From Pseudeuparius sepicola (taxonomy: Eukaryota; Arthropoda; Insecta; Coleoptera; Anthribidae), in NCBI GenBank assembly GCA_963920635.1, contig OY987298.1, positions 64,625,949-64,689,948 on the forward strand: 64,000 nucleotides of DNA, in the 5' to 3' direction. The notes below the pieces were generated by a model. It searched no databases and was not told where the DNA came from. It saw only the letters and a program-made list of their open reading frames with translations. Position numbers and translations under genes: made by a program. Of the stretch, positions 7,221 to 51,400 are shown in pieces; position 1 is the first letter of the stretch, and every line of letters begins with the position of its first letter.

Positions 7221-8535
7221 TATTCTATTTAACCTCTCATCCCATACACTATCCCTTCGATTAATAGTACACATCGCTGAGGTGGTGTCCACCCTACACA
7301 GTATATTACAATCAGACATCTTTCTCGAAAAATATTATAAGCCCAGGTAAACAGCTAATAATTTTAACTCATTAATATGACGCTGTTTTTCTTCGTCCGA
7401 CCAGAAAAAACATGAATCGTCTTGTTGTTGCAATGACAACCCCAGCCAGTCTTTGACGCATCTGTAAACATTTCCATAGATAATCTGTCATAACGAAACG
7501 CATTACCGAAACATTGTAACTTTCTAAGCCACCACTGAAATTCTGGTAGTAAGACTGACGATAAATTCATTATTCTATCGTAGTTTCCCTGAGTTTTTCT
7601 TAATGTAAGAAATTTTTGTCGTTCAAATTGCTTTAACTATATTTAGAAAAATATATTTAATAGCGAGAGCTACCGAAATCAAATTACCAATAAATTTAGA
7701 AAAACCTTCATTTCCAGCATTTCTTCAATAAGGGAAACTCTCTTACCAGTGCTATAAGCCTCCGACGTTTTTCAGGAGGAAGCTCAAGTGACATTTCCTT
7801 AGAGTTAAATACAAACCCTAAATATCTACAGAGCTGACTGGGGATGAGGTTACTCTTTATATCATTTATGAGATATCCTAAATGTTCTAATAAACCTATC
7901 TCCTGTATATTCTTTTGATATTGTGAAGTGTCCCTTCCTAAATCTAATATATCATCCAAATAGATAACTGAAAAGAATCCTCTTTCACTCAACCATGACA
8001 TTACTGGTCTAAAAATCATGGTAAAAATTAGAAGGGCACAACTCAGCCCAAGAGCCAACACCTTGTATTTATATATACAATTGATAAATCTAAATCTCAA
8101 AAATTTCCTGTGAGGCGGTTCTGCTAGGTACAAGATAGGTCGATGGTTCCCATAAAGATGTTTGATGTAATCAAACGCGAAACAGTTCTATAGTCCCCTA
8201 TCTTATTAACATGAGATAATTTAACGAATTTATTAAAGGACCGAAGGTTTAAAATTAAACGGTAACTACCATCCGTTTTTGGAATTATAAGGATATTAAA
8301 GATGAATCGATAGATTCTAAATCTAGAATTATATAGATGATAACATGAATCTTCTCCTTGAACCAGTTCGGGAGGAACAACCGTCTGTATTGGCCTCTTA
8401 ATAAAAGGAATGTTTATTCCCTTTATATAGGAAATAAATCTCCTATCCTTAACCAAGTCACACCAATTCTGAACAAGAACCTCTAAGGGTAGCGACGTCT
8501 CTTGTCGCTCTGAGGCTTGTGTCGATCTTGCCTCT
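7221..8535 (-). pseudogene. Inverted partial copy of DIRS-type retrotransposon RT/RNase H
   Basis: This block is the reverse complement of 9688-11005 with only scattered differences. It encodes the same RT pieces: 8456-8124, then 8133-7708 with the VIYLDD catalytic box, then 7570-7364 with the RNase H start FTDASKTGWG. The two copies share the same frame break, a 10-nt overlap of the first two frames next to the words DLSCT. The element was therefore already broken when it was duplicated. The copy lacks the gag and recombinase regions. It starts next to a hairpin and ends at a minisatellite (8536). Confidence 0.85.
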
Positions 8536-9113: not shown

Positions 9114-9775
9114 ATGCCTCAGATAGAACCAGACAACTTATCCATATTTGGAGAGGTCGGTTCTCCGGAAAAGAGATTTTCGGATCCGGTTCAACCAGAG
9201 TTAGCTACACGTTGGGGTGCGATTCTCAAATCCGGACTGCCAGAGAACTTAAGGGCAGAATTAATTAAGAAATATACCCCCCCTCCCCGAGAATTGTCAA
9301 GAGTTATACCCACCCAAGATAAGTCCGGAAGTTAAAGTAGCGCTTACAAGAGCAAGTAATAACAAAAAAGGAGGGGGGGCAGTAAATATTTAATTCATAG
9401 AGGTGCAGGTGCTCAGCGATACTGGTAGATTACTTAGTGATATATTCCACTCTAAGTCTATATCAAGACGGGAATTGTTAATATTAAACCAAAATAAAGA
9501 CACCTCAAAAGATACCCTAATATCCGGATGACTATTTGGAAGCAACTTAGATGGCACTATCAAGAGTGTTAAGGAAACTTCAAGCGTGTATTTCTGCAAA
9601 ATAGGAGAGCGCAGCAGAGTGGACAAGTTCACCGTGCTCCCAACAGCCAACGTCGTAGATACCAATATCAGGAACAGTACCAACCGAAGAGGCAAGATCG
9701 ACACAAGCCTCAGAGCGACAAGAGACGTCGCTACCCTTAGAGGTTCTTGTTCAGAATTGGTGTGACTTGGTTAAG
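9114..9775 (+). pseudogene. DIRS-type gag remnant
   Basis: The open frame 9114-9335 begins with Met and includes RWGAILKSGLPENLRAEL, a run typical of the capsid-like ORF of DIRS retrotransposons. After a frame change near 9330 the reading continues as PEVKVALTRASNNKK. Further on (about 9400-9600) come SRRELLILNQNKDT and, after a stop, LFGSNLDGTIKSVKE, also typical. Stops and shifts mean it cannot make one protein. It leads directly into the RT region at 9767, which is the expected order for a DIRS element. Confidence 0.6.
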
Positions 9776-11525
9776 GATAGGAGATTTATTTCCTATATAA
9801 AGGGAATAAACATTCCTTTTATTAAGAGGCCAATACAGACGGTTGTTCCTCCCGAACTGGTTCAAGGAGAAGATTCATGTTATCATCTATATAATTCTAG
9901 ATTTAGAATCTATCGATTCATCTTTAATATCCTTATAATTCCAAAAACGGATGGTAGTTACCGTTTAATTTTAAACCTTCGGTCCTTTAATAAATTCGTT
10001 AAATTATCTCATGTTAATAAGATAGGGGACTATAGAACTGTTTCGCGTTTGATTACATCAAACATCTTTATGGGAACCATCGACCTATCTTGTACCTAGC
10101 AGAACCGCCTCACAGGAAATTTTTGAGATTTAGATTTATCAATTGTATACATAAATACAAGGTGTTGGCTCTTGGGCTGAGTTGTGCCCTTCTAATTTTT
10201 ACCATGATTTTTAGACCAGTAATGTCATGGTTGAGTGAAAGAGGATTCTTTTCAGTTATCTATTTGGATGATATATTAGATTTAGGAAGGGACACTTCAC
10301 AATATCAAAAGAATATACAGGAGACAATAGGTTTATTAGAACATTTAGGATATCTCATAAATTATATAAAGATTAACCTCATCCCCAGTCAGCTCTGTAG
10401 ATATTTAGGGTTTGTATTTAACTCTAAGGAAATGTCACTTGAGCTTCCTCCTGAAAAACGTCGGAGGCTTATAGCACTGGTAAGAGAGTTTCCCTTATTG
10501 AAGAAATGCTGTAAATGAAGGTTTTTCTAAATTTATTGGTAATTTGATTTCGGTAGCTCTCGCTATTAAATATATTTTTCTAAATATAGTTAAAGCAATT
10601 TGAACGACAAAAATTTCTTACATTAAGAAAAACTCAGGGAAACTACGATAGAATATTGAATTTATCGTCAGTCTTACTACCAGAATTTCAGTGGTGGCTT
10701 AGAAAGTTACAATGTTTCGGTAATGCGTTTCGTTATGACAGATTATCTATGGAAATGTTTACAGATGCGTCAAAGACTGGCTGGGGTTGTCATTGCAACA
10801 ACAAGACGATTCATGTTTTTTCTGGTCGGACGAAGAAAAACAGCGTCATATTAATGAGTTAAAATTATTAGCTGTTTACCTGGGCTTATAATATTTTTCG
10901 AGAAAGATGTCTGATTGTAATATACTGTGTAGGGTGGACAACACTTCAGCGATGTGTACTATTAATCGAAGGGATAGTGTACGGGATGAGAGGTTAAATA
11001 GAATAGCACAAAAAAATTTGCGCTTGGTATGAGAATAAAAACATTTATATTTTTTGCCTAATTCGGCTGACAATTTCGTCGCTGACAAGGCTTCTCGACA
11101 AGTACACCAAGAGATAGAATGGCCTCTGGTAGGTTATGCTTTTAGTAAAATAAAGGAGAGATTGGGTAATCCGATGCATAGACTTGTTCGCAAGTCATAT
11201 AAATAAAAATATGCGCCATATTTTTTCTTGGTTGAATAACCCAGAAGCTTTCAAGGTAGGCGCGTTCACGCTAGATTGGTTGAAATTGTATTTCTATGCG
11301 TTTTCCTCTATTCGTCTTGATCTTGGGATAAAAGTCTCCAAAAAATTATTAAGGACAAAGCAGAAGGGATTGTTGTAGCTCCTCTAGGGACCTTTCAACC
11401 GTGGTATCAGGTTTTTTGTACCTATCTCTCTTGTTGAAAGAACCAATCATCTTTGAACCTAGCGAAGCTTTACTTAGTTTTAGCGGAACAAGTCACCCAT
11501 TATCAATGAACTTTTCCCTGGTAGC
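9767..11525 (+). pseudogene. DIRS-type reverse transcriptase/RNase H (broken)
   Basis: Polymerase region of a DIRS/Ngaro-type retrotransposon. The order is: RT palm and fingers (9767-10099, with IPKTDGSYRLILNLRSFN); catalytic YLDD at 10261-10272; thumb (to 10518); RNase H with FTDASKTGWG (about 10758-10787), NELKLLAVY, RVDNTS and ADKASR, which carry its acidic residues; then the DIRS-specific segment with LFASHINKN...NPEAF (about 11180-11260). There are several frame changes and stops, so the copy is dead. The part 9688-11005 is also present inverted at 7221-8535. Confidence 0.85.
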
Positions 11526-20982: not shown

Positions 20983-22864
20983 TACAGGGTGACATAGAAA
21001 AAAGTACATTACATAGTGCCACACCATAGAGGACACTAAAATAAGAAAAAAGTTCCTATGAACATGGGTCCGCAAGGCCTTCGGTTAAAAGATACGGGGT
21101 GTTGAATTGTGATTTATTTGTTTTGTTTTTTACGAATATCTTTAGCCAGAGACGCAAGAAATGGATAAAATGTGGTATACAGGTTTTTTTTATCATGCTA
21201 AATTCAAATACGCTCTACATTACACGGTTCCATCTCTATTGAATCGGTCCTAACTTTTTTGCTATACAGTGTATGTTATTTTCGACTGAAAAAATGTTAG
21301 CCCATCTTTTATACTTACGAAAGGTATACCTTGTCCAAGTCGCTAGAAGCAATGGTTCCAGTACAAATGCATCTAAAGCCGACAATGCATGCAAATTACT
21401 TATTCAAAAAGCATCAAAGTAACCTTTGCAAAAACAATGATAAGTAACAATGAAATAATGTGTCATAATGACACTTTTGTCAAACTAATTTAATAATTGT
21501 TATTAGGTAGTAGGTATTTTGTGTTCTTGTTTATGTTTTTTATTGGTTTCCCTTTGATAATTCAAAATTGATTTCAAAAATGGTTCACTATACTTTTGAA
21601 GAATACAGAGACATGATTATGTGTTACGGCGAAGCTAGATCAAATTTTTACGAAGCTCAACGTATCTATCGAGAAAGATATCGTTTAAAACAAGTTCCTA
21701 ATGTTCGAACATTTATTGATGTGCATAGGCGTTTGGGAGAAGATGGCTGTTTTAGAAAACCAAAAGTGAATAGTGGGGTTTCCAGAACTTGTCGCACTGT
21801 GCAAAACGAAGAAACTGTTTTACGAATGGTAGAAAATAATCCGAGAAGAAGCACCAGGAAAATAAGTTCAGCGGTGCGAAACGTTAACCGTGAATCAAGT
21901 AGACAAATTTTGAAAGAACAACTTCTTCGCCCATACCATTTCCAAAAAATTCATTCACTATTGCAACATGACTTTTTTCCTCGTGCACAATTTTGCGAAT
22001 GGTTGCAAAACCAAAGACAAAACATTATTTCATCAATTTTGTTTACTGATGAACCTGGTTTTAGTCGTGATGGTATTCTGAACCTACATAACATGCACTA
22101 TTGGAGTGATAAAAATCCTCATCAAACTGTAATTCGAAGTCACCAATATGGGTTTTCTATTAATGTGTGGGCAGGTATAATCGACAATTACTTAATTGGC
22201 CCATTTCGATTGCCCAATCGATTGACAGGTGCACTGTATCGACATTTCTTGGAGAATGATTTAAACACATTATTAGAGGATGTCCCATTGGCCATTACTG
22301 GAAGAATGTATTACATGCATGATGGGGCGCCAGCTCACTTTTCTCGAGTGGCAAAGGAATATTTGGACAGGAGATTTGGAAATACGTGGATTGGTCGAGG
22401 AGGGCCTGTACCCTGGCCAGCTCGTAGTCCCGACCTTAATCCCCTCGATTTTTTATTTTGGGGATTTACGAAAAATGAAGTTTATGCTGAAGCACAGTTA
22501 TGGATATGAATTATGGAATCGGCAGATAGATTTCGTAATGACCCAGGAATATTTCAAAGATGCCGTCAATCATTAAGAAGAAGAATGGAAAAATGTATTG
22601 AAGTACAAGGGCAACAATTTGAACATCTTCTAAAACCTTAATGTTTTGTTTTGATTAATCATATTTTTCATCAAACCATTACAATTTAATTGTTGGAGTA
22701 TTTATCATTGTTTTTGCAAATAAATAAAAAAAATTACAATTCAACACCCCGTATCTTTTAACCGAAGGCCTTGCGGACCCATGTTCATAGGAACTTTTTT
22801 TCTTATTTTAGTGTCCTCTATGGTGTGGCACTATGTAATGTACTTTTTTCTATGTCACCCTGTA
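20983..22864 (+). mobile_element. Mariner-type DNA transposon with about 130-bp terminal inverted repeats
   Basis: The left end (20983-about 21113) and the right end (about 22733-22864) are near-identical inverted repeats that begin tacagggtgacatag. TA lies directly outside both ends (20981-20982 and 22865-22866), as expected for Tc1/mariner insertion. The element is 1,882 bp and encloses one transposase gene. With one indel over about 130 bp between the ends, it is a fairly young copy. Confidence 0.9.
21568..22641 (+). pseudogene. Mariner-type transposase, one in-frame premature stop
   Basis: DDD transposase that would excise and reinsert the surrounding element at TA sites. The N-terminal part (residues 6-120) is a helix-turn-helix DNA-binding region starting MVHYTFEEYRDMI. 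The likely start is the Met at 21580, because the four residues before it are not typical. Catalytic acids are D161 (FTDEPGF), D252 (MHDGAPAH) and D294 (SPDLNPLDFLFWG), with 41 residues between the last two, the spacing reported for rosa-type mariners. The frame meets TGA at 22507-22509, then continues in the same frame as IMESADRF... to a stop at 22639-22641. The product is therefore cut about 45 residues short, outside the catalytic core. The stop fits CGA-to-TGA decay. Confidence 0.88.
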
Positions 22865-25950: not shown

Positions 25951-26964
25951 TTAATATTTAGTATACCCACCTTGGGATAGGATGACTTTCTGAACTCTCC
26001 TGCTCATCGAATCTATGAGTTGGCAGCAGAGATCATGGGTTACGACTTCATCCCACGTTTGTTGAATCTTCTGCCAAAGTGCCTCCCTATTTTCGGGTAC
26101 GAAGTTCTCCATTGTCCGCGCCATTCTGCCCCACACATTCTCAATGGGATTCAAGTCAGGACTCTTCGCCGGCCATTGCAACTTTTCTACGTTGTTTTCG
26201 GTGAACCATTCGCGAACTATTCTTGCTGTATGCACAGGAGCGTTATCATGCTGGAAAACGAAGCCATCGGGATACATTTCCGTTGCAGTTGGTAACAATC
26301 CGCCTTCGAGTATCTCGCAATAGCGAGCTGCTGTGAAGCGGTCGTCGATTCTCCAACAAATGCCAGGTCCACGGTAGCTTATCCAGGCCCATATGTTGAC
26401 GGAAAAATGCCCACTCCTTTTCCTGGGTGACACAAATCTTTCGTCATATCTTGAACTCACCGAAGGTCTATATACTCGCACTTTGCCATTGTAATGGCTT
26501 TGAAAGATCTTTTCGTCGCTAAATATTACCTTCTCCCAATAATGTGGCGGTAAACGCTGAAACTCTCGGCATATCTGCAACCTGACTTCCTTATTAGCCT
26601 CGGTCAGCTGAATTTTGTTGCTGGCCGTGCGAGATTTCAGATTGGCTGCATCTAATCTCCTTCGGGCAGTTCTAACACTTGCTGGAAATTGTGTTGCAGA
26701 TAATGCTTCAACGGCGGATTTAAACGGATTTGCAAGGCAAAAATTAGCTAGTTGCTCATCTTGTTGGTCAGACGTAATTTTCACATTTCCTCCTCTATGT
26801 ATGTTTTCCACGCTTCCGGTTTCGTCATATTTCTTCTTTATATTGAAAATGGTGCTTTTAGATACACCAAATTCTTCGGCCAGTCGGGAAATAGCCCAAC
26901 CATTTTCTAGTTTGGCGATGATACGGTGCTTGACGGATTCACTCAAACGAGGCATAACGAACAC
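25951..26964 (-). CDS. Tc1-type transposase, intact reading frame
   Basis: DD34E transposase of the Tc1 family, 337 codons, which is normal full length. An N-terminal helix-turn-helix (residues 8-60; SRLAEEFGVSKSTIFNIKKK) and a second DNA-binding segment (to about 115) precede the catalytic domain. Catalytic residues are D150 (VIFSDEKIF), D240 (FQHDNAPVH) and E275 (SPDLNPIENVWGRM), with exactly 34 residues between the last two. The Met at 26964 is the first in frame; the Met four codons in (MPRLSES) is an equally good start and more like the family. There are no stops or shifts, so the protein could be functional. I could not find terminal repeats close to the gene; the identical 62-bp ends at 23123 and 28524 are candidates. 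It is the only complete DNA-transposase frame here. Confidence 0.92.
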   Translation of the reverse strand: MFVMPRLSESVKHRIIAKLENGWAISRLAEEFGVSKSTIFNIKKKYDETGSVENIHRGGNVKITSDQQDEQLANFCLANPFKSAVEALSATQFPASVRTARRRLDAANLKSRTASNKIQLTEANKEVRLQICREFQRLPPHYWEKVIFSDEKIFQSHYNGKVRVYRPSVSSRYDERFVSPRKRSGHFSVNIWAWISYRGPGICWRIDDRFTAARYCEILEGGLLPTATEMYPDGFVFQHDNAPVHTARIVREWFTENNVEKLQWPAKSPDLNPIENVWGRMARTMENFVPENREALWQKIQQTWDEVVTHDLCCQLIDSMSRRVQKVILSQGGYTKY

Positions 26965-27261
26965 TGTTAGTTACTCTCTCGAATTAGGATACTGACTAAA
27001 TAATTTTAGCCCACCCACCTTAGTATTTATACAAAGGGCTAGGACCAGGTATAATCGATATTTTCAAAATCTACATCCAATTCAATATTACAATTATTAA
27101 GTTAATCCCCTAAATTTAGTTATATTAAGTGCAGGTAGGTATAATTAATAAATACCTATTTAAAAAGATATAAATATCTATGCTAAAATATTTCAACTCA
27201 GGTAATCCGATAATCCATTAATTTTGTGCCATACATTTTCTAATTAATATTAAGAGCCCCC

Positions 27262-38437: not shown

Positions 38438-38441
38438 TTCA

Positions 38442-38853
38442 TGTTACGGGCGACGTGAAGACGAAGACTTTTTAAAAAACTTTTATTTGATTAACGCGAG
38501 TTACAGAGTTTCGGCTTAGACTACAGACAAGACTAGAATTAACACTCTTACTTTACTAGGTCCTATTTATACAGATCTGTTATGCTGAGGTGTTGTGGTT
38601 CTCATGGGAAAAGAATATAAAGACAAAGGGAAGATCAAATTCTGCAATTCTTGCAGTAAGCAAGTTTTAACAATACTCAAAAGGAATATGATATGTTCTA
38701 GTAATCATTCTAGAACAATATACAATGGAAAATGATATCTTTGTAGTAAGCATCTTGAACAATAGAGAATGAGAACATAATATCCAACAGTAAACAGAAT
38801 CAAGGGTAAAAACAAGGTTATGATCAAGGTGATGCTTGAGGTCGGATATAACA
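38442..38853 (-). repeat. 3' LTR
   Basis: 412 bp, matching 46714-47125 at 410 positions. The AATAAA polyadenylation signal (minus strand) is at 38482-38487, about 40 bases before the LTR end. Confidence 0.95.
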
Positions 38854-38901: not shown

Positions 38902-40818
38902 TTAGGCATATGTTTTAGTATTAGAATTTAGTTCAATTTCTTCTTCTTCGCGAGGTTCGTCCAATCTATACGAAGGTCTTCTTTTGACAGTAACAAATTT
39001 TCTTAAATTTTGAAAAACGCGATTTCGTGTTCTAGGAGGTTGTGGAGGATCGTCTCCGTTATTAGTAGTAATAATGCCTATTTTAATGTTCCTAGACTTT
39101 TTACATTTAAAATAAAAGTACACAATAATTAAAAGTATGATTAAAGCAATGGATAGATATGTCAATATTGGCGTATACTTATTTACAGTTGGTTCGTTAA
39201 TAATATTATCAAGATCCTTTGCATATTCGTCTAATTTATGCTTTGCGACATTTAAATCGTCATAATTAAATTTATTTAGTTGTAAAGGTTTTAAGTCAGG
39301 ATATTTTAGTTTATTTGGAGTTTCTTTGCAACATTCAAATGGTATATTAATTGGGTGAAATTTATAGGTTTGATTAGATTTATTTAAATTTTTCGTTTGA
39401 ATTTTAGTACTTCCAATATAAGCAATGCATTCAGATTTTAACGTTAAAATTGAAGTTTTGTCTAGCATTATAGTCAAAGGATTTTGATTTTTGCACTTAA
39501 TAGTTATAGGAAATATTTCACTTAAAATTATTAACCATTGATTCTCTTGAATCAATTGTACATTGTAACTTTCAATTGAAATTGTGACTATGTCACAAGT
39601 ATTAGGTAAATGGGTTTTTACCTCTAATAATTGAGCTTCACATCTTGAATGTGAGTCAATAGGAGTAGGATATAAATCTTTGCACATTATTAAATCAAAT
39701 GCTAGTTCTTTACAATTTTTTATATCATAGAGAATTACATAGAGAGTTGGGTCATCGCTTTTTGCTACAAATTTAGTATCAGTGGATACCATGTGATAAA
39801 ATCCAGTTTTATTGTCGAAAATTGGAATAGGATAAATTCTATAAAGAGTATACCATTGAGGTTCTACTAAAGGAATGTCTAATATAAAAACAAGTCTATT
39901 TTCTGTTTGAAAAACCTTTAGTTCTATAAAATCAAGATAAGTTGCAACATTTAGAAGTTGAGGAGTTAAGGGCAAATTATTTTTGTTTAAAGTTTGAGCG
40001 ATTATTTGCAAATGATGAACCAGGTCTTCAGGAGTTATAACTGACGTGTGAATAATATGTAACTTTGCAAAAGTAATAGAGTTTAGAATGTCATTTAAAT
40101 TGCTTTCGATAAAGGTATAGGATTCTAGGAGTCTTTCGGCCATCTCTAAAACTTGTAATTTTGCAGTGTAATAATTAAAATTATCAGAAATGTTATAAAT
40201 GTAATTTTCGATTTGTTTTATGTCATTATTAAAAGTAATTTCATCAATTTGTAATTTGTTGATAGAGTCGTTAAAGTTTTTGATAACTGAAGTAGTTACT
40301 AAAATTTGTTTTTTCATTAATTTTTCTAATTCGTGTTCGTCTCTGTTAATTTTGTCGATACAATCGTTATAATACTGTCCGTCTGAAGCGTCTAAATTTC
40401 CGGTAATAAATTTCCAAACTGACCCTAAACCATTAATTAAACCTCTTTTATATCTTCTTACATCAATAGCTAATTCTTCAAATTTGAGCGCAATGTTTTC
40501 GGAAAGTTGATTTAGTAAAGTGAGATGTGACTTAACTTCGCTTAGAAAGGCGGCCATTCGTACGTCTTTTGGTTGAATTATAAATTGCATATTTTCTAAA
40601 ATTTTATTATTATTTTCGAATGTTGTTTTTAGAGATGAAATGTCTTTATATACCAATAAACTCCACTTGTCATTAGAAATTTTGAGTCCGGATTGCTCTT
40701 GATAGAACACGCCTATGGTGTTATTAATTGGTCGCAGTGTATATTGTGCCATAGCGGTAGTGAACAAAGAAAATCTGTAACGAAGTTTCAGAATTAGGAA
40801 CTTGGTTCGATATAACAA
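38902..40818 (-). CDS. env: Envelope fusion protein (baculovirus F-like), intact
   Basis: A 638-codon frame in the third position of the element, as env in errantiviruses. It would make a membrane fusion glycoprotein. Visible parts: a hydrophobic N-terminus (residues 1-25) that may act as a signal peptide; a furin-type site RRYKR at 121-125, followed at once by a Gly-rich hydrophobic segment (126-145) that fits a fusion peptide; a helical, heptad-like region (about 150-260); a membrane anchor (about 548-570); and a cytoplasmic tail of 68 residues rich in Arg then Glu. It overlaps the end of pol by 25 nt in another frame. In this group env usually comes from a spliced RNA. There are no stops, in contrast to pol. 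Start choice: the Met at 40818 is the first; a Met at residue 23 is the alternative. Confidence 0.88.
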   Translation of the reverse strand: MLYRTKFLILKLRYRFSLFTTAMAQYTLRPINNTIGVFYQEQSGLKISNDKWSLLVYKDISSLKTTFENNNKILENMQFIIQPKDVRMAAFLSEVKSHLTLLNQLSENIALKFEELAIDVRRYKRGLINGLGSVWKFITGNLDASDGQYYNDCIDKINRDEHELEKLMKKQILVTTSVIKNFNDSINKLQIDEITFNNDIKQIENYIYNISDNFNYYTAKLQVLEMAERLLESYTFIESNLNDILNSITFAKLHIIHTSVITPEDLVHHLQIIAQTLNKNNLPLTPQLLNVATYLDFIELKVFQTENRLVFILDIPLVEPQWYTLYRIYPIPIFDNKTGFYHMVSTDTKFVAKSDDPTLYVILYDIKNCKELAFDLIMCKDLYPTPIDSHSRCEAQLLEVKTHLPNTCDIVTISIESYNVQLIQENQWLIILSEIFPITIKCKNQNPLTIMLDKTSILTLKSECIAYIGSTKIQTKNLNKSNQTYKFHPINIPFECCKETPNKLKYPDLKPLQLNKFNYDDLNVAKHKLDEYAKDLDNIINEPTVNKYTPILTYLSIALIILLIIVYFYFKCKKSRNIKIGIITTNNGDDPPQPPRTRNRVFQNLRKFVTVKRRPSYRLDEPREEEEIELNSNTKTYA

Positions 40819-41816
40819 ATTATTTTAATATCAGTATTTTTGAAAATATATTTGATCATAGGGAGAACTGTATCCCAATCTAATTTGTCTAATCCACAAG
40901 CTAACTTGGGTATAGCTATAATTTTATCTTTTTCATCAGTGCTCTCGAGACAATTTGTTCGTAATTCCTTCAAGCAATTAAATAAATTAGCATAAGTTGG
41001 TTTATAATAGAAAAATTCTTTAGTTATTAAATAATAAATATTTCTTGTCGGAAGTTGAAGTACTGCTATTTCACCAATTGACTTATTTTGATTTTTTAGT
41101 TCATCTACGTGTCCAAATTTATTCTTAAATTCTTTTGCAATTCCTGCATTCATTTCTAAATCTTTAGATACACAGTGAGCTAATGAAATATTTTCAGGGG
41201 CATCAAATAAGTTGCCCAGTTCAATGGAAACGTTATTATTTTCAATAGGGATTTTTCGATCTAGAGTATAAAAGAATTCTTTAACCGTTAGTTCTTCTTC
41301 CTCCAATTCGTGACATTTCTTTAGCATATCAAAATTCATTTTTGTGGTTTGGTTAGTAATTGGGTTATGTAGCAAAGCTGAATTCGTATAAATTTCTTTA
41401 ATTTTATAGGGTCCATTAAATTTGTTAGCTAGTTTATTTTTTATTTGGGACTCCTTGACATAAACCTTTTCTCCTACGCGAAATTGTCGCTGCTCCGAAA
41501 CGTGTGTATCAAATCGCTGTTTCGCCTTTTGTTTGCGCATATCCGTACGCTTTCTTGCCACTTCATAATAATGCTTTATTTTATTGTTTAAATCGCGAAC
41601 GTACTTAGAGATTAATTCTTGCTGATTATACAAAACTTCTGGAGGTCGAGACGAGGTGTGACCGAATAGCAATTCGTAAGGAGTAAAGCCGTGTGTTTTA
41701 TTTATAGAATTGTTATATGCTATACAAGCGTAAGGAAGCATTTGAAATGGGTGTTCGTTAGGATTTTCTGTACTACATGCGCGTATCATTTCAGTTAAGG
41801 TGGCATGAAATCTTTC
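40794..41816 (-). pseudogene. pol: Pol C-terminal part: integrase end fused to a TARG1/OARD1-like macro domain
   Basis: This continues the integrase frame directly after the stop at 41817-41819 and starts with the codon for the catalytic Glu (ERFH). Counting from the Met at 41789 (331 codons): residues 1-55 are the end of the integrase core (HGFTPYELLFG), 85-160 the C-terminal SH3-like GPY/F module (FRVGEKVYV, NKFNGPYKI), 161-185 an acidic linker, and 186-328 a macro domain. The macro domain has SLAHCVSKDLEMNAGIA, a GEIAVL strand, YYLITK with Lys257, and ACGLDKL with Asp301. These match the catalytic Lys84 and Asp125 of human OARD1/TARG1, which removes ADP-ribose from glutamate. The domain sits inside the pol frame, not in a separate gene, and pol ends just after it. 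The family assignment is strong by eye; activity is inferred. Confidence 0.88.
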
Positions 41817-43715
41817 TTAGGAGCCATTTGATTGCGGATGACTAACACTAGAGAAAGTTAATTTTATATTGTATAATTTACAAAGATCTTTCATTAATTG
41901 ATTATTAAATTCTTTACCTACATCGCAATAGATTCTTAAGGGAGTTCCAAAATGTTGAAAATAGAGTAACAGAGCGTCTACTACAGATCTCGCTGTTTTA
42001 TTAGGAAGTGCATAAGTTTGGGTAAATTTTGTTAGTTCGTCTCTTATGGTAAGGATATTATTTTTTACTGGGATTTCTAGGATATCGATATTTATTCTTT
42101 CGAAAGGAGTTTTAGGAGTTTCGGTAATAACTAAGGGACTGTCCAAGTTTTGTCTACAAATTTTTGTCTTTTGGCAGATTTCGCACTGCCGAATAAATGT
42201 TTCGACGTCTTTAGTTAGTCCTGTCCAATTATATTTTTGTTTGATGCGTCTAATTGTTTCGTTTATTCCTCGATGTAAGTTTGTCTTGCCTGAATGAAAT
42301 TGATCTATTATTATAGGTATTTGGTCTTCGTCTGGTATAGTCACAATGTTCTGACAAATTGTTAGTTGGAAATTTTTATCTGAGAACAAAAAATTAAACA
42401 TTTCTAAAATTGGAAAATCTGGATTGTTTTCAATGTAATAAGTTTTATTTTCTTCGAATATATCTTTACTGTAATAAAGAGATATGAAGAGTACTTGTAT
42501 TGCGGTTTCAAAATTAAAAGGAACAGGAATTATATAATATTTTCTTTTAGCTACGGTTTGACTGGAAAGAACATTTGCTTTATTATAGTTAAAATCAGGA
42601 TTTAGCTCAAGTAAATCATCAATAACTTTTTCGTGAAGGTCTGTTAATTTGTCTTGTTGAAAAATTAGTACAATGTCCTTGTGTGTTTTGTCTAAAAGTT
42701 GATTATTTGTATATTGGATTTTAGAATAGTCGATCATTAAATTCGTCTTGTATAGATCAAAAAATCTGTCAAATTCATTACAGATTATAGCAATTTCGTC
42801 AGTCTCATTATTGTCAATAGGCGGGTCAATGTCTTGAGGATTATCATGGGAAGTAGATGGTTCGTCTAGGGAAGTATGAAAGGAAACAGCTTCTTTTATA
42901 TGATTGATTTTGATTCGAGATAAAGCGTCGGCATTTCGATTAATTTTTCCAGGTTTATAAATTATTTGATAATTATATTCTTCTAATTTAAGTCGCCAAC
43001 GTGCTAAACGACTACCGGGATCTTTTATTGAGAAAAGCCAGGTTAAAGGTCTATGATCTGTAACCAATAAGAATTTTCGTCCGAAAAGATAAAGTCTATA
43101 GTTTTTTACGGCAGCAATTATTGCCAAAAGTTCTTTCTCTATAACGCTATATTTCATTTCTGCTGGACTTAAGGTTCTTGAAAAGTATGCTATGGGAAGA
43201 TCATTTCCAACAGGTCCTTGCGAAAGTACCGCGCCTACAGCAAAAGCGCTTGCATCTGTAGTTAAAACAAATTCTTTTTCAAAATTAGGATATATTAGAA
43301 TTGGTGAAGTTATTAATGCATTTTTAAGTTGTTCGAAAGATTCACGACAATCTTTATCAAAAATAAATGGTACGTCTTTTCTTAAAAGTCGAGTTAAAGG
43401 CTTTGTCATTTTTGCGAAGTTTGGAATAAACTTCCTGTAGTAACCAGTAAGACCCAAAAATTGTTTAATTTGTTTAGTATTGGCAGGTTGAGGAAAATCG
43501 ATAACAGCTTGTACTTTTTGTGGATTTGGTTTGACCCCTTCAGGTGTAATAACATGTCCTAAATAAATTACTTCTTTTCGTAAGAATTCACACTTATCTG
43601 GCTGTATTTTTAGATTTGAATTTCTTAATCTTTGAAAAACTTCAGTAATACGAGAGATATGTTCATTAATTGTGGAAGAATAAATAAAATAATGTCGTCC
43701 ATGTAAACTAAGCAC
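41817..43715 (-). pseudogene. pol: Pol central part: RT thumb, RNase H, spacer, integrase core
   Basis: A 632-codon frame. Residues 10-115 are RT thumb and connection (CEFLRKEVIYLGHVITPEG, LGLTGYYRKFIPNF). 145-265 is RNase H with D154 (TTDAS), E195, D220 (VTDHRPL) and D263 (NADALSR). 341-456 is a spacer of unusual character, described in a finding. 474-514 is the HHCC zinc finger of integrase (H474, H481, C511, C514), followed by the catalytic acids D544 and D598. The stop TAA at 41817-41819 comes one codon before the third catalytic acid (Glu), in the spacing D-35-E. The first ten codons belong to another frame: RT reading enters here by a frame change just after the YMDD box at about 43680. 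Confidence 0.9.
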
Positions 43716-44846
43716 TTTTCGTTTTGTGTCCCCATTAGTATATTATCCATAACCCTCTGAAAGGTTGAGGGCGCATTACGAAGGCCAAAGGGCATACGTA
43801 AATATTCGAAATGTCCATTTTCAACGGAAAAAGCAGTTTTCGAAATGTCTTCTGGATTCATTTCAATTTGTTGAAAACCAGAAGCCAAATCTAAAGTAGT
43901 AAAATAATGGCAATTACCCAACTGATCTAATATATCTGAAATATTAGGCAGTGGATACCTGTCATTAACTGTTAATTCATTTAATTTCCGATAATCAATT
44001 ACGATTCTCCATTTTTGTTTGCCTGAAGCGTCTAATTTTTTTGGAACGACCCATACTGGGGACGACCATGGTGAAACAGAAGGTATAATTATTCCTTGAG
44101 AAAGCATTTTATTAATTTGTGTTTTTACTTCTTCCTTGTGAACTTGTGGATATCGATAAGATTTAGTAAAAATTGGCTTAGCGTCGCCTGTATCGATAGT
44201 ATGTTTTATTTCATTAGTGAAACTTAGGAAATCTCCGTCAAAGTAAAATATATCTTCAAAATTCAAGCATAAATTAGTAATTAATTCTTTTTCTTCTTCG
44301 TTTAAATGTTCTAGCCTTAATGATTCTTTTATTTCTTCTACTCTGCTTTTCGTTTTATTAAAATTACAAATAATATTAGCACTAGCGTTCGTTTCTTTAA
44401 TGTAAGGCTCAAATTCAAATTCTTCGAAACAAATATCCTTTGTTATGGCATTAGCGTTTAATATTGTCGTATAAAAATTACCGTCTTCGTTTATTTTTAC
44501 TATAGCATTTGGCACGTATACCTTTTCTACTCGTTGTGCGCATAAAATCATTTCTTTATTCGTATATCTATTCGTATGAAACTTGCATATTTTTTCGCAA
44601 CGCGGTTCTATCGTAACCTGATTTATATTATAACTCGTATTTTCGCTTTCAAAATTATTTATATTTTCCGTGTAATCATTATTATTATTATTATTTCGTT
44701 CATAAGCGTTTATATGAAGGCTATCGTATCTTTCGTCAACATTAACTTGTCTTTTATAAACAACTCGATTATTATTATCATTATTATTCGTTAACTCGTT
44801 TAATTCATCTCCGTCTTTGAGTAATTCGTGTACCTTATAGTACGTA
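43625..44846 (-). pseudogene. pol: Pol: reverse transcriptase palm/fingers with N-terminal extension
   Basis: The RT frame is open from about 44846. Its first Met used as a coordinate is at 44551, but translation would normally come from upstream as part of Gag-Pol. The extension (44846-44552) is Asn-rich, with AAT/GAT repeats. RT motifs seen: [55 protein letters not shown] and the catalytic YMDD (residues 283-286 counted from 44551; 43705-43694). Four residues after YMDD the family sequence continues in a different frame, so this frame ends in about 18 unrelated residues (stop at 43625). A second frame change separates it from the protease. Confidence 0.88.
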
Positions 44847-45264
44847 CCTAATTAATTGTTTATTCCTAAAATCTACTACTGCACCGTACCTTTCTAAAAA
44901 GTCAGCGCCTAAAATTCCGTCGAATCCTATATCTAGATCGCAAATATAAACTTTATGGGGAGAAAGAGGACCCGTAAAAGAAACAAATACCGCTTCAGTA
45001 ATAGGAATTGATTGGCCAGAAATACCTTTAATTTGAAAATTTTCTGGACATCGATTTAAAAATTGCTGAACCGTCTCTGGTTTGAAAATTGAAATACCAG
45101 CTCCTGTGTCAATTAAAATTTTGTACTTATCGGTATTATCTTTAATATAATATAGATTGCTATTGTCAACGGTATTTATGCAAACGTTTGGTCCGTATTG
45201 GTCATACCAAGATTCTTGAAGTTGGGAATAGGATTCTGGTCCGAGGCTGTTAATTGAAAATTTT
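44835..45264 (-). pseudogene. pol: Pol: aspartic protease, reached by -1 frameshift from gag
   Basis: Retropepsin-type protease that would process Gag-Pol. In the -1 frame relative to gag it reads ILIDTGAGISIF (catalytic Asp in DTGA, about 45115-45095) and ends with the second signature ILGADFLERYGAVVD. It stops at TAA 44835-44837. The frame is open back to the heptamer in gag at 45258-45264, an overlap of about 85 nt with gag. The RT frame opens only about 10 nt before this stop and in yet another frame, so protease and RT are separated by an indel or an unusual recoding event. Confidence 0.82.
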
Positions 45265-46372
45265 CGCTTTGGCCCAGATAATGTTGTTGGGGAGTTCTAT
45301 TTTGGTTATTTGGATTTGAATTTGGGAATCTAGGAGTAAAATTTTGATTAGAAGGCTGGAAACCTGAATTATTATTAAAAGTTCTTGGGAAATTGTTTCT
45401 AGGAATATTATTAGAAAAATTTCTAGGAGGTTGATTTCTTGGTTGGAAGTTTTGAGGGTGGTTCCTAGGTTGGAAAGAAGGAGTTTGAAAATTATTTTGC
45501 TGAGGAAAAGATGGTCTTTGATGGAACCTATTTTGGGAGAAATTATTTCTTTGGGAGTTATTTTGGAAATTGTTAGAGTAGCTAGAAGGATTTGGACCAT
45601 TTCTGTAATAATTATTTTGATTTTTAGTTCGACATTCATTGATAGTATGTCCATTTCTTTTGCAATAATTACAAAATTTTGGAAAACTATTATTAGTTCT
45701 CTTAACATTATTATTGAAGACTGGTACACGATTTTGCCTCTGAAATTTTTGATTTTCAAAATAAGAAAGTTGCAATTCTCTCTTAATTAAAGCTATAGCA
45801 TCCATCATGTTGGGTGGATTGCTAGCACGAATTAGTTGCCCTATTCTTGGTTCTAAACCTGTCAAAACTGTATTTAGGCACATGCTATCGATTAATGTAG
45901 CTTGCGATTCTTTTTGTTCCCTAGTGAGAAGGCTTTGTTTTCCTATTGCGGCATACATTTTCGAGCAGTGAGTTTGAACTCTGCCTACAAAAGTCAAAGC
46001 ATTTTCATTTTGGGATTGACACATTCTTTGTAAATCTTGAATTAATGAAGTTAGATCGCGAGGATCTCCGAAATGAACGTTAAGTAATTGTTTGATTTCC
46101 CTCCAGGTACTCAAGTCTCTTGAATTAATGAGTTGGGCTGCACGTCCCTTTAATTGATTTTTAATTTTTATAATAAGTAAAATGGCTTGGTCGCCAACAG
46201 TCATTTGCATGGCCCTATCACATGCAATGATAAAAGTATTTAAATTGATTTGATCCCCATCGTATTCAGGGATGATAGAAAATATTTCGCTTAATTTAAA
46301 TGGTACTTCGTCGTTATTTGAAGCGTTTGCTTCATTGTTTACATTAGAGTTTATAGCTTCGTTATTCGGCAT
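45176..46372 (-). CDS. gag: Gag polyprotein with CCHC zinc knuckle, intact
   Basis: 398 codons. It builds the particle core and binds RNA. Residues 1-22 are Asn-rich. 23-205 is a capsid-like helical domain of the retrotransposon Gag type (FSIIPEYDGD, WREIKQLLNVHFGDPRDLTSLIQDL). C234-C247 is a zinc knuckle of the form C-X2-C-X4-H-X4-C. 248-370 is a low-complexity tail very rich in Asn, Gln, Phe, Pro and Arg. The start is the first Met in frame, 341 nt after the 5' LTR. The last 80 or so nt overlap the protease frame. No lesions are seen. Confidence 0.93.
   Translation of the reverse strand: MPNNEAINSNVNNEANASNNDEVPFKLSEIFSIIPEYDGDQINLNTFIIACDRAMQMTVGDQAILLIIKIKNQLKGRAAQLINSRDLSTWREIKQLLNVHFGDPRDLTSLIQDLQRMCQSQNENALTFVGRVQTHCSKMYAAIGKQSLLTREQKESQATLIDSMCLNTVLTGLEPRIGQLIRASNPPNMMDAIALIKRELQLSYFENQKFQRQNRVPVFNNNVKRTNNSFPKFCNYCKRNGHTINECRTKNQNNYYRNGPNPSSYSNNFQNNSQRNNFSQNRFHQRPSFPQQNNFQTPSFQPRNHPQNFQPRNQPPRNFSNNIPRNNFPRTFNNNSGFQPSNQNFTPRFPNSNPNNQNRTPQQHYLGQSENFQLTASDQNPIPNFKNLGMTNTDQTFA
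45258..45264 (-). promoter_or_regulatory. Candidate -1 ribosomal slippery heptamer
   Basis: On the minus strand the gag frame reads GA-A AAT TTT-CAA; A AAT TTT fits the X XXY YYZ rule. The -1 frame is open from here through the protease. It lies about 80 nt before the gag stop. A downstream pseudoknot was not tested. Confidence 0.55.
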
Positions 46373-46713: not shown

Positions 46714-47125
46714 TGTTACGGGCGACGTGAAGACGAAGACTTTTTAAAAAACTTTTATTTGAGTAACGCGAGTTACAGAGTTTCGGCTTAGACTACAGAC
46801 AAGACTAGAATTAACACTCTTACTTTACTAGGTCCTATTTATACAGATCTGTTATGCTGAGGTGTTGTGGTTCTCATGGGAAAAGAATATAAAGACAAAG
46901 GGAAGATCAAATTCTACAATTCTTGCAGTAAGCAAGTTTTAACAATACTCAAAAGGAATATGATATGTTCTAGTAATCATTCTAGAACAATATACAATGG
47001 AAAATGATATCTTTGTAGTAAGCATCTTGAACAATAGAGAATGAGAACATAATATCCAACAGTAAACAGAATCAAGGGTAAAAACAAGGTTATGATCAAG
47101 GTGATGCTTGAGGTCGGATATAACA
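46714..47125 (-). promoter_or_regulatory. 5' LTR (promoter)
   Basis: 412 bp, TGTT...AACA. A TATA box, TATAAATA, lies at 46836-46843 on the minus strand, and an AATAAA signal at 46754-46759, about 80 bases downstream. The order fits a U3-R-U5 layout. Confidence 0.92.
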
Positions 47126-47129
47126 TTCA

Positions 47130-49404: not shown

Positions 49405-51400
49405 AATACGTGTTCCGTTTTCTTACCGAAGTAACAGAAATCGTTCCGTAATTGGTTTCGATAACATTTCGGTAACATTACGGAACGATACACGAAGTTA
49501 CCGGAAATTACCGAAGTAATCGAGCTCCCGACCACAATAAGTTCTGTAACTTGTGGTGGGGGTAAACATTTGTAACCTATTTTCCTATTTATTCGGTGTT
49601 TTGTGGTTGTAGTTGTTTATAACCTTGGTGTTTTGTGGTTGTTTATGAAATGTGAAAGTCGAGGGAGGGCTGTTATTTTGTATTTGTTTGGCGGATATAA
49701 ACAATTTGCTTCTTCGTAATTCATTATGCACGCCCCGGTCGGATTCGTCCACAGAACACCCTCAACACAACTACAATAATAATACGGTTCTAACCTCAAC
49801 TCTTAACAACTCAAAAAAGACAAATTTGTTAGGTTGATGAAGTAACGAAGGCGTTCCGTTTTGAAAGTTATTTTTTATTACAATTGACAGAAAATACGTG
49901 TTCCGTTTTCTTACCGAAGTAACAGAAATCGTTCCGTAATTGGTTTCGATAACATTTCGGTAACATTACGGAACGATACACGAAGTTACCGGAAATTACC
50001 GAAGTAATCGAGCTCCCGACCACAATAAGTTCTGTAACTTGTGGTGGGGGTAAACATTTGTAACCTATTTTCCTATTTATTCGGTGTTTTGTGGTTGTAG
50101 TTGTTTATAACCTTGGTGTTTTGTGGTTGTTTATGAAATGTGAAAGTCGAGGGAGGGCTGTTATTTTGTATTTGTTTGGCGGATATAAACAATTTGCTTC
50201 TTCGTAATTCATTATGCACGCCCCGGTCGGATTCGTCCACAGAACACCCTCAACACAACTACAATAATAATACGGTTCTAACCTCAACTCTTAACAACTC
50301 AAAAAAGACAAATTTGTTAGGTTGATGAAGTAACGAAGGCGTTCCGTTTTGAAAGTTATTTTTTATTACAATTGACAGAAAATACGTGTTCCGTTTTCTT
50401 ACCGAAGTAACAGAAATCGTTCCGTAATTGGTTTCGATAACATTTCGGTAACATTACGGAACGATACACGAAGTTACCGGAAATTACCGAAGTAATCGAG
50501 CTCCCGACCACAATAAGTTCTGTAACTTGTGGTGGGGGTAAACATTTGTAACCTATTTTCCTATTTATTCGGTGTTTTGTGGTTGTAGTTGTAGTTGTTT
50601 ATAACCTTGGTGTTTTGTGGTTGTTTATGAAATGTGAAAGTCGAGGGAGGGCTGTTATTTTGTATTTGTTTGGCGGATATAAACAATTTGCTTCTTCGTA
50701 ATTCATTATGCACGCCCCGGTCGGATTCGTCCACAGAACACCCTCAACACAACTACAATAATAATACGGTTCTAACCTCAACTCTTAACAACTCAAAAAA
50801 GACAAATTTGTTAGGTTGATGAAGTAACGAAGGCGTTCCGTTTTGAAAGTTATTTTTTATTACAATTGACAGAAAATACGTGTTCCGTTTTCTTACCGAA
50901 GTAACAGAAATCGTTCCGTAATTGGTTTCGATAACATTTCGTTAACATTACGGAACGATACACGGAGTTACCGGAAATTACCGAAGTAATCGAGCTCCCG
51001 ACCACAATAAGTTCTGTAACTTGTGGTGGGGGTAAACATTTGTAACCTGTTTTCCTATTTATTCGGTGTTTTGCGGTTGTAGTTGTTTATAACCTTGATG
51101 TTTTGTGGTTGTTTATGAAATGTGAAAGTCGAGGGAGGGCTGTTATTTTTTATTTGTTTGGCGGATATAAACATATTTGCTTCTTCGTAATTCATTATGC
51201 ACGCCCCGGTCGGATTCGTCCACAGAACAACCTCAACACAACGACAATAATAATAAAGTTTTAACCTCAACTCTTAACAACTCAAAAAACACAAATAGGT
51301 TAGGTTGATGAAGTAACGAAGGCGTTCCGTTTTGAAAGTTATTTTTGATTACAATTGACAGAAAGTGCTCGATTAATTCTGTAAGAAAACGGAACACGTA
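49405..51400. repeat. Four-copy tandem array of a 488-bp unit with array-level inverted ends
   Basis: Copies start at 49405, 49893, 50381 and 50875. Copies 1-3 are almost identical, and copy 3 has an extra 6 bp (gtagtt duplicated). Copy 4 is more diverged and ends at about 51362. The array begins with tacgtgttccgttttcttac (49407-49426) and ends with its exact reverse complement (51381-51400); a near-copy follows at 51421-51440. Each unit holds a hairpin atcgttccgtaat...attacggaacgat. The 60-61 codon frames that recur in each unit on both strands have no known domain and are probably chance. Confidence 0.9.

Follow-up and report, generated by a model that had tools for sequence, protein, structure and literature searches.

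Retroviral dUTPases, which keep the complementary DNA (cDNA) free of lesions, are carried within Pol, between RNase H and integrase in non-primate lentiviruses and C-terminal to integrase in ERV-L, and macro domains are known as counter-measures of RNA viruses. Here we describe a macro domain of the TARG1/OARD1 (C6orf130) type at the C-terminus of Pol in a long terminal repeat (LTR) retroelement of the beetle Pseudeuparius sepicola. The element lies in a stretch of 64,000 nucleotides of contig OY987298.1 (positions 64,625,949 to 64,689,948), which was analysed as a whole and is called the window below. The dUTPases resemble the insect macro domains in being accessory enzymes at the same two positions of Pol, and differ from them in that fold and chemistry are unrelated. 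Some fish epsilon-like endogenous retroviruses bear macro-domain open reading frames (ORFs), according to a passage in one article (PMC4977317) that cites Basta et al. 2009 for this. As far as that passage goes, these are likewise retrovirus-like elements with a macro-domain protein, whereas the macro domains form additional ORFs, and host, virus group and position all differ from those of the beetle element.

The cellular TARG1 shares with the beetle domain its fold, the catalytic lysine and aspartate and the order of the motifs, with 46-47% identity in structural alignment; the cellular protein, however, stands alone, whereas the beetle domain forms the C-terminus of a retroelement Pol. Common to the beetle element and to errantiviruses and Ty3 elements (Metaviridae) are LTRs, a 4-bp target-site duplication, gag, a pol with reverse transcriptase (RT), RNase H and integrase, and an env of the baculovirus F type. 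The beetle element differs in its extra macro domain, since pol stops behind the GPY/F module of integrase in its eight nearest relatives whose sequence extends that far. In the full-text literature searched, where coverage of subscription papers is thin, no insect Ty3/errantivirus element was found to be described with a macro domain in Pol, and none of the 16 stretches that matched the search pattern in viral contigs encodes a relative.

The macro domain at the C-terminus of Pol

An earlier note on this DNA, made from the sequence alone, had proposed that an LTR element encodes a TARG1/OARD1-like macro domain in frame behind integrase, after the GPY/F module and an acidic linker, with Lys257 and Asp301 as counterparts of TARG1 Lys84 and Asp125. 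The present analysis bears out each of these points, the numbering included. The ORF at 40794-41789 on the reverse strand encodes 331 amino acids (aa) and runs without a stop from the C-terminal region of integrase, via the GPY motif and the acidic stretch, into the macro motifs. Pfam Macro (PF01661) covers its residues 207-311 with an E-value (E) of 2.6e-6 (27.8 bits, cut-off 22), and a phmmer search of PDB sequences matched residues 7-149 of a 154-aa fragment to human OARD1/C6orf130 (TARG1) at E 3e-37. A chance match of motifs was ruled out by this OARD1 match. The AlphaFold2 model of the macro fragment has a mean predicted local distance difference test score of 94, and when it was compared with known structures by Foldseek the first eight rows were all TARG1/C6orf130 (best E 5.2e-18, root-mean-square deviation 1.5 A), with bacterial DarG macrodomains directly below them and coronavirus and alphavirus macro domains listed far under TARG1. 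DarG, the next-best match in fold, is also the sole match in NCBIfam (NF048014, DNA ADP-ribosyl glycohydrolase, E 4.9e-9); it is a bacterial antitoxin, however, and the score of 35.9 bits lies far under the 250-bit equivalog cut-off of NF048014. Lys257 and Asp301 (K80 and D124 of the fragment) are invariant in 46 of 46 aligned macro proteins, the window included, which we chose from the proteins returned by the searches. Residues 186-328 of the ORF are almost certainly a TARG1/OARD1-type macro domain with lysine and aspartate at the catalytic positions.

Presence and constraint across genomic copies

A search of the genome (769 Mb in 16 contigs) placed the fusion in at least 121 copies (the best 121 of 3322 candidates), each matching at 99-100% over the ORF and one of them spanning residues 2-331. 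A single one of the 121 scored copies has an internal stop, and the open frame of 54 is 1490-1499 aa long. As these copies had been ranked by the ORF region itself, a second sample was taken of 24 rows that matched the protein P0010, described below, via RNase H alone. The fusion is carried by 20 of these 24 copies, as far as their sequence was read: eight were already full-length among the 121; a blastn comparison of 15 further copies gave 11 that align over at least 945 of 993 positions (with 8, 24 and 76 gap positions in three of them), two partial matches and two copies without a match; and the remaining copy, L067, aligned over 864 positions, to the end of its stretch. An insertion peculiar to the window copy was ruled out by the two samples. 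The macro domain is genuine and fixed in the Pol of an errantivirus-like family with recent activity.

Among segregating changes in six sequences aligned without gaps, the window being one of them, the macro domain shows 8 nonsynonymous changes at 352 sites and 6 synonymous changes at 86 sites, a ratio of 0.33 (Fisher p 0.038). For the integrase part the counts are 10 nonsynonymous and 11 synonymous changes (ratio 0.23, p 7.5e-4). Constraint on the macro domain is partly shown, as far as sequence comparison can tell, by this small sample in the window family and by two pairs of families among its sister macro domains.

Outside this genome the C-terminus of Pol looks different. The C-terminal part of integrase is, over about residues 1-161, 58-70% identical to the proteins P0001-P0008, in all eight of which pol stops past GPY/F at positions that agree to a few residues. 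The earlier note had named copies that end pol at that point as grounds for taking the domain as a chance insertion; within the genome of P. sepicola this check came out in favour of the fusion, whereas the relatives from elsewhere do end there. Thirteen homologues contain integrase sequence (P0001-P0009, P0011, P0013, P0015 and P0016), and not one of them runs on into a macro domain; P0009 and P0016 extend slightly past the end point without one, and truncation or rearrangement affects P0011, P0013 and P0015. By their names P0001, P0004, P0007 and P0008 are beetle proteins, and wherever a protein matching the integrase part or the fusion is named, its source is a beetle (Acanthoscelides, Anoplophora, Molorchus, Aromia or Coccinella). 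Because eight relatives end pol right after GPY/F, the C-terminal macro domain is most simply read as a gain in the lineage of the window element.

Macro domains between RNase H and integrase

Other Ty3/errantivirus families of the same genome have a TARG1-type macro domain inserted between RNase H and integrase. In P0010 a Ty3 RNase H is linked to a macro domain that shares 63% identity with that of the window, and when P0010 was used as a genome query (best 116 of 6436 candidates scored) the best 39 rows all spanned the full length of RNase H and macro domain at 44-49% identity. Thirty loci, the ten best and others of our choosing (L031-L060), were mapped. RNase H is followed by the macro domain in 28 of the 30, and an integrase match comes next in 24 of those 28; the other two loci (L056 and L057) have RNase H and integrase with the macro domain absent. 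Pfam Macro was matched by an L034 stretch at 1.1e-8, and an env lies downstream in that copy (L059, PF12259, E 1.2e-15). Three close relatives of L043 and L048 (L061, L062 and L065), read by eye, are without the macro domain, and therefore it was gained or lost inside that group. The arrangement extends to P0017 from the ladybird Coccinella, in which a macro domain is joined to the same pre-integrase region, and to P0026, which by eye reads as a macro domain attached to the connector between RNase H and integrase.

The linker macro domains look constrained, judging from sequence divergence, and evolve faster than RNase H. Between families B3 and B4, with one copy each, the ratio of nonsynonymous to synonymous divergence (dN/dS) of the linker macro domain is 0.098 over 105 codons; between B1 and B2 its dN is 0.19 with dS saturated, and that of RNase H is 0.032.

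Some members are degenerate. In the family C macro domains (L041, L042 and L045) the first ADP-ribose loop is gone, while the profile match persists. In the window family itself the linker between RNase H and integrase is predicted, with moderate confidence, to adopt a degenerate TARG1 fold, the catalytic motifs being gone as judged by register. The L034-type pre-integrase domain resembles this linker (score 27.9, reached by 0 of 40 shuffles), and against the TARG1 profile it scores above 40 of 40 shuffles, yet a reversed control scores higher; in comparison with family C, an equal or better score is reached by 16 of 40 shuffles. Profile comparison does not support reading it as a degenerate macro domain, although its resemblance to the linker would fit that reading.

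Origin of the domain

A maximum-likelihood tree was built from 121 rows and 142 columns with 113 of the 130 returned proteins; short matches were left out, as was P0012, which seems interrupted by a piece of a long interspersed nuclear element (LINE). One clade (98/94) unites the window macro domain, P0010, P0017, P0026 and four families of the beetle's own genome, and within it the window macro domain groups with P0010, P0017 and P0026 (100/92). Transfer between elements is favoured because the window macro domain falls inside this clade of retroelement macro domains, the other members of which, where their context is visible, lie between RNase H and integrase; on this sequence comparison the window macro domain probably came from another retroelement and not straight from a host gene.

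That the window family captured the beetle's own OARD1 directly, independently of the other macro-bearing elements, is unlikely. The gain appears lineage-specific, with eight relatives that are without the domain, and the tree contains no host gene of this beetle, both of which would suit such a capture. Against it stand the position of the window macro domain with P0010, P0017 and P0026 inside the retroelement clade and the 63% identity, in the macro domain, to P0010, a protein of RNase H and macro. The 85-aa P0018 fragment, taken as a stand-in for host OARD1, also speaks against it: the matches listed for this fragment are macro copies at 55-58% identity, the element's copies filling the list, and none of the 150 is closer than 58%. 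Of the proposal in the earlier note that an LTR element captured a host-type hydrolase, the TARG1-type hydrolase fold in the element is retained, and a direct origin from the host has become the less supported part.

The DNA pattern P..IGCG(L/I)D, used in a second search for the host gene, was found at 69 places in the genome and at none in the reversed control. Four of these stretches were read by eye: L089 holds a macro domain of the retroelement type, L091 and L092 have stops or frame changes, and L090 is partial. As separate observations, 37 of the 69 places are identical and code for PMIGCGIDK, L089 is a full TARG1-like macro domain, and L091 is a degraded one, 53% identical to that of the window.

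Proposed function and alternatives

We favour, with a probability of roughly three in four, the reading in which the macro domain is a fixed Pol domain, taken from another element, that works as an active hydrolase near integrase. Pol of the window family is ordered RT, RNase H, a likely degenerate macro domain, integrase and the TARG1-type macro domain, with env next. The domain would have been taken over from another Ty3/errantivirus family with a macro domain between RNase H and integrase, and would be carried into particles within Gag-Pol as an active ADP-ribosyl hydrolase working beside integrase. The likeliest class of substrate would be ADP-ribose attached through an ester or phosphate linkage near the integration complex, either at cDNA ends or on Pol, Gag or chromatin proteins marked by host poly(ADP-ribose) polymerases (PARPs), and its removal would free ends or proteins for integration. 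The identity of the domain rests on the sequence match, the predicted fold, the kept catalytic residues and the presence across copies, and from these we infer hydrolase activity. Judged by its sequence, the domain is likely to retain catalysis; that it acts at the integration step is a more tentative proposal, which we hold somewhat less likely than not.

Several observations weigh against this reading. Two degenerate family C macro domains fall outside the retroelement clade, on a long branch, and the clade itself derives from an alignment of 142 columns for which the bootstrap had not yet converged. Neither the search with the 85-aa P0018 fragment nor the DNA pattern search identified the host OARD1 of the beetle, and the tree is accordingly without it. 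Relatives live without the C-terminal macro domain, so elements of this kind do not as a rule depend on it. The earlier note had suggested that selection be examined across copies, and the ratio for the macro domain does point to constraint; the sample of six sequences is small, however, and the macro domain alone is only marginally significant, and the comparison of B3 with B4 takes one partly decayed copy from each. Lastly, human TARG1 has a G at the position of the MNAGIA loop where the beetle fragment (residue 37) has an N; the relatives also vary there.

As to what the domain would act upon, TARG1 is known for de-ADP-ribosylation of glutamate and aspartate, and coronavirus and alphavirus macro domains are thought to counter host PARP marks. 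It is possible, though less likely than not, that the beetle domain likewise removes mono-ADP-ribose from Gag, Pol or chromatin and so counters such marks; the activity of TARG1 would fit, as would the coronavirus and alphavirus macro domains in the Foldseek listing, although these rank far under TARG1 and the beetle domain is of the TARG1 type and not of the viral nsP3/nsp3 type. TARG1 and DarG also act on ADP-ribosylated nucleic acid. PARPs or related transferases may tag phosphate ends of cDNA or RNA, and a domain tethered to integrase may clean the LTR ends before strand transfer, which we hold possible but doubtful: DarG follows TARG1 in Foldseek and is the only NCBIfam match, and the domain lies on or beside integrase in both architectures, but the DarG score is far under its cut-off, and the sequence is silent on whether the substrate is nucleic acid or protein. 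That the domain is kept for binding or structure and not as an enzyme, as suggested by the degenerate macro domains of family C and, likely, of the window linker, is improbable. The family C domains lack the first ADP-ribose loop and yet keep the profile match, and the window linker is by register without catalytic motifs; the C-terminal macro domain, however, keeps both catalytic residues and nearly all the conserved loop residues.

The preferred reading of an exchanged, active hydrolase may be extended, at some risk, to a long association of insect errantiviruses with TARG1-type ADP-ribosyl hydrolases, which we consider rather unlikely. An ancestral linker macro domain would have decayed, visibly by sequence profile in family C and by predicted fold alone in the window family, and catalytic copies would have been regained and exchanged between families, in the linker or behind integrase, keeping the enzyme at the integration complex, for example to clear cDNA ends. 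If so, ADP-ribosylation would be an unrecognised barrier to the integration of insect retroelements. The two Pol positions, the signs of constraint in sister families and the likely decayed linker copy suggest that ADP-ribosylation affects the replication or integration of retroelements, or the host's control thereof, and the same domain elsewhere in Pol of related elements suggests a need to undo a modification made by the host or by the element itself.

Structure of the element and its surroundings

The beetle LTR element is young, carries an env and is errantivirus-like, as judged by its LTRs (2 mismatches between the pair, each of 412 bp, with TTCA at both outer flanks), its 4-bp duplication, the order gag-pol-env and the F-type env. 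Its features are collected in the table below.

Features of the retroelement in the window (positions of the 64,000-nucleotide stretch)
Feature	Position	Strand	Basis or remark
Target-site duplication TTCA, left	38438..38441	.	TTCA on both sides of the element
3' LTR, 412 bp	38442..38853	-	+ strand reads TGTTACGG...ATATAACA; 2 mismatches against the other LTR
env ORF, Baculovirus F protein family	38902..40818	-	PF12259, E 3e-39
TARG1/OARD1-type macro domain, residues 186-328 of the 331-aa ORF, C-terminus of pol	40806..41234	-	Pfam, phmmer, AlphaFold2, Foldseek
Asp301 codon (counterpart of TARG1 Asp125)	40887..40889	-	alignment
Lys257 codon (counterpart of TARG1 Lys84)	41019..41021	-	alignment
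Integrase C-terminal part, GPY/F module, acidic linker	41235..41789	-	ORF reading and homologous proteins
In-frame stop within integrase	41817..41819	-	translation
pol ORF: end of RT, RNase H, linker, integrase zinc finger, part of core	41817..43715	-	Pfam RT_RNaseH, Integrase_H2C2, rve
RNase H-integrase linker, predicted degenerate TARG1-like macro domain	42339..42737	-	moderate-confidence model
RT ORF, frame differs from next pol ORF	43625..44551	-	ORF list, Pfam
gag ORF	45176..46372	-	Retrotrans_gag E 0.005, below cut-off; also position
5' LTR, 412 bp	46714..47125	-	LTR comparison
Target-site duplication TTCA, right	47126..47129	.	TTCA on both sides of the element

The pol of the window copy is broken, a point absent from the earlier note, and this at two places, by the stop within integrase and by a change of frame in RT where the two upstream pol ORFs overlap. 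The env ORF, which shares the final bases of pol, comprises 638 aa when counted from a TTG, the first ATG lying 22 codons further in.

Adjoining the element, at 49405-51371, a 488-bp unit is repeated in tandem about four times, with identities of up to 100% between the units. Elsewhere in the window an inverted pair of 1.3-kb repeats (7221-8535 and 9688-11005) is 99% identical, a long open frame at 25954-26970 encodes a Tc1/mariner-like transposase (DDE_3, HTH_Tnp_Tc3_2), and one at 21514-22506, with DUF4817 and a sub-threshold DDE_3 match, is probably a transposase as well. Among the returned proteins, P0014 combines a GDSL esterase, a TARG1-type macro domain and a sub-threshold PHD finger, an architecture that we take to be that of a LINE ORF1. 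The best rows for P0014 in the genome include C1:80545805, C4:54866643, C2:69455718, C5:24149765 and C3:24536142, where the macro domains lie in open frames of 300-673 aa and perhaps belong to other types of element, such as LINE ORF1.
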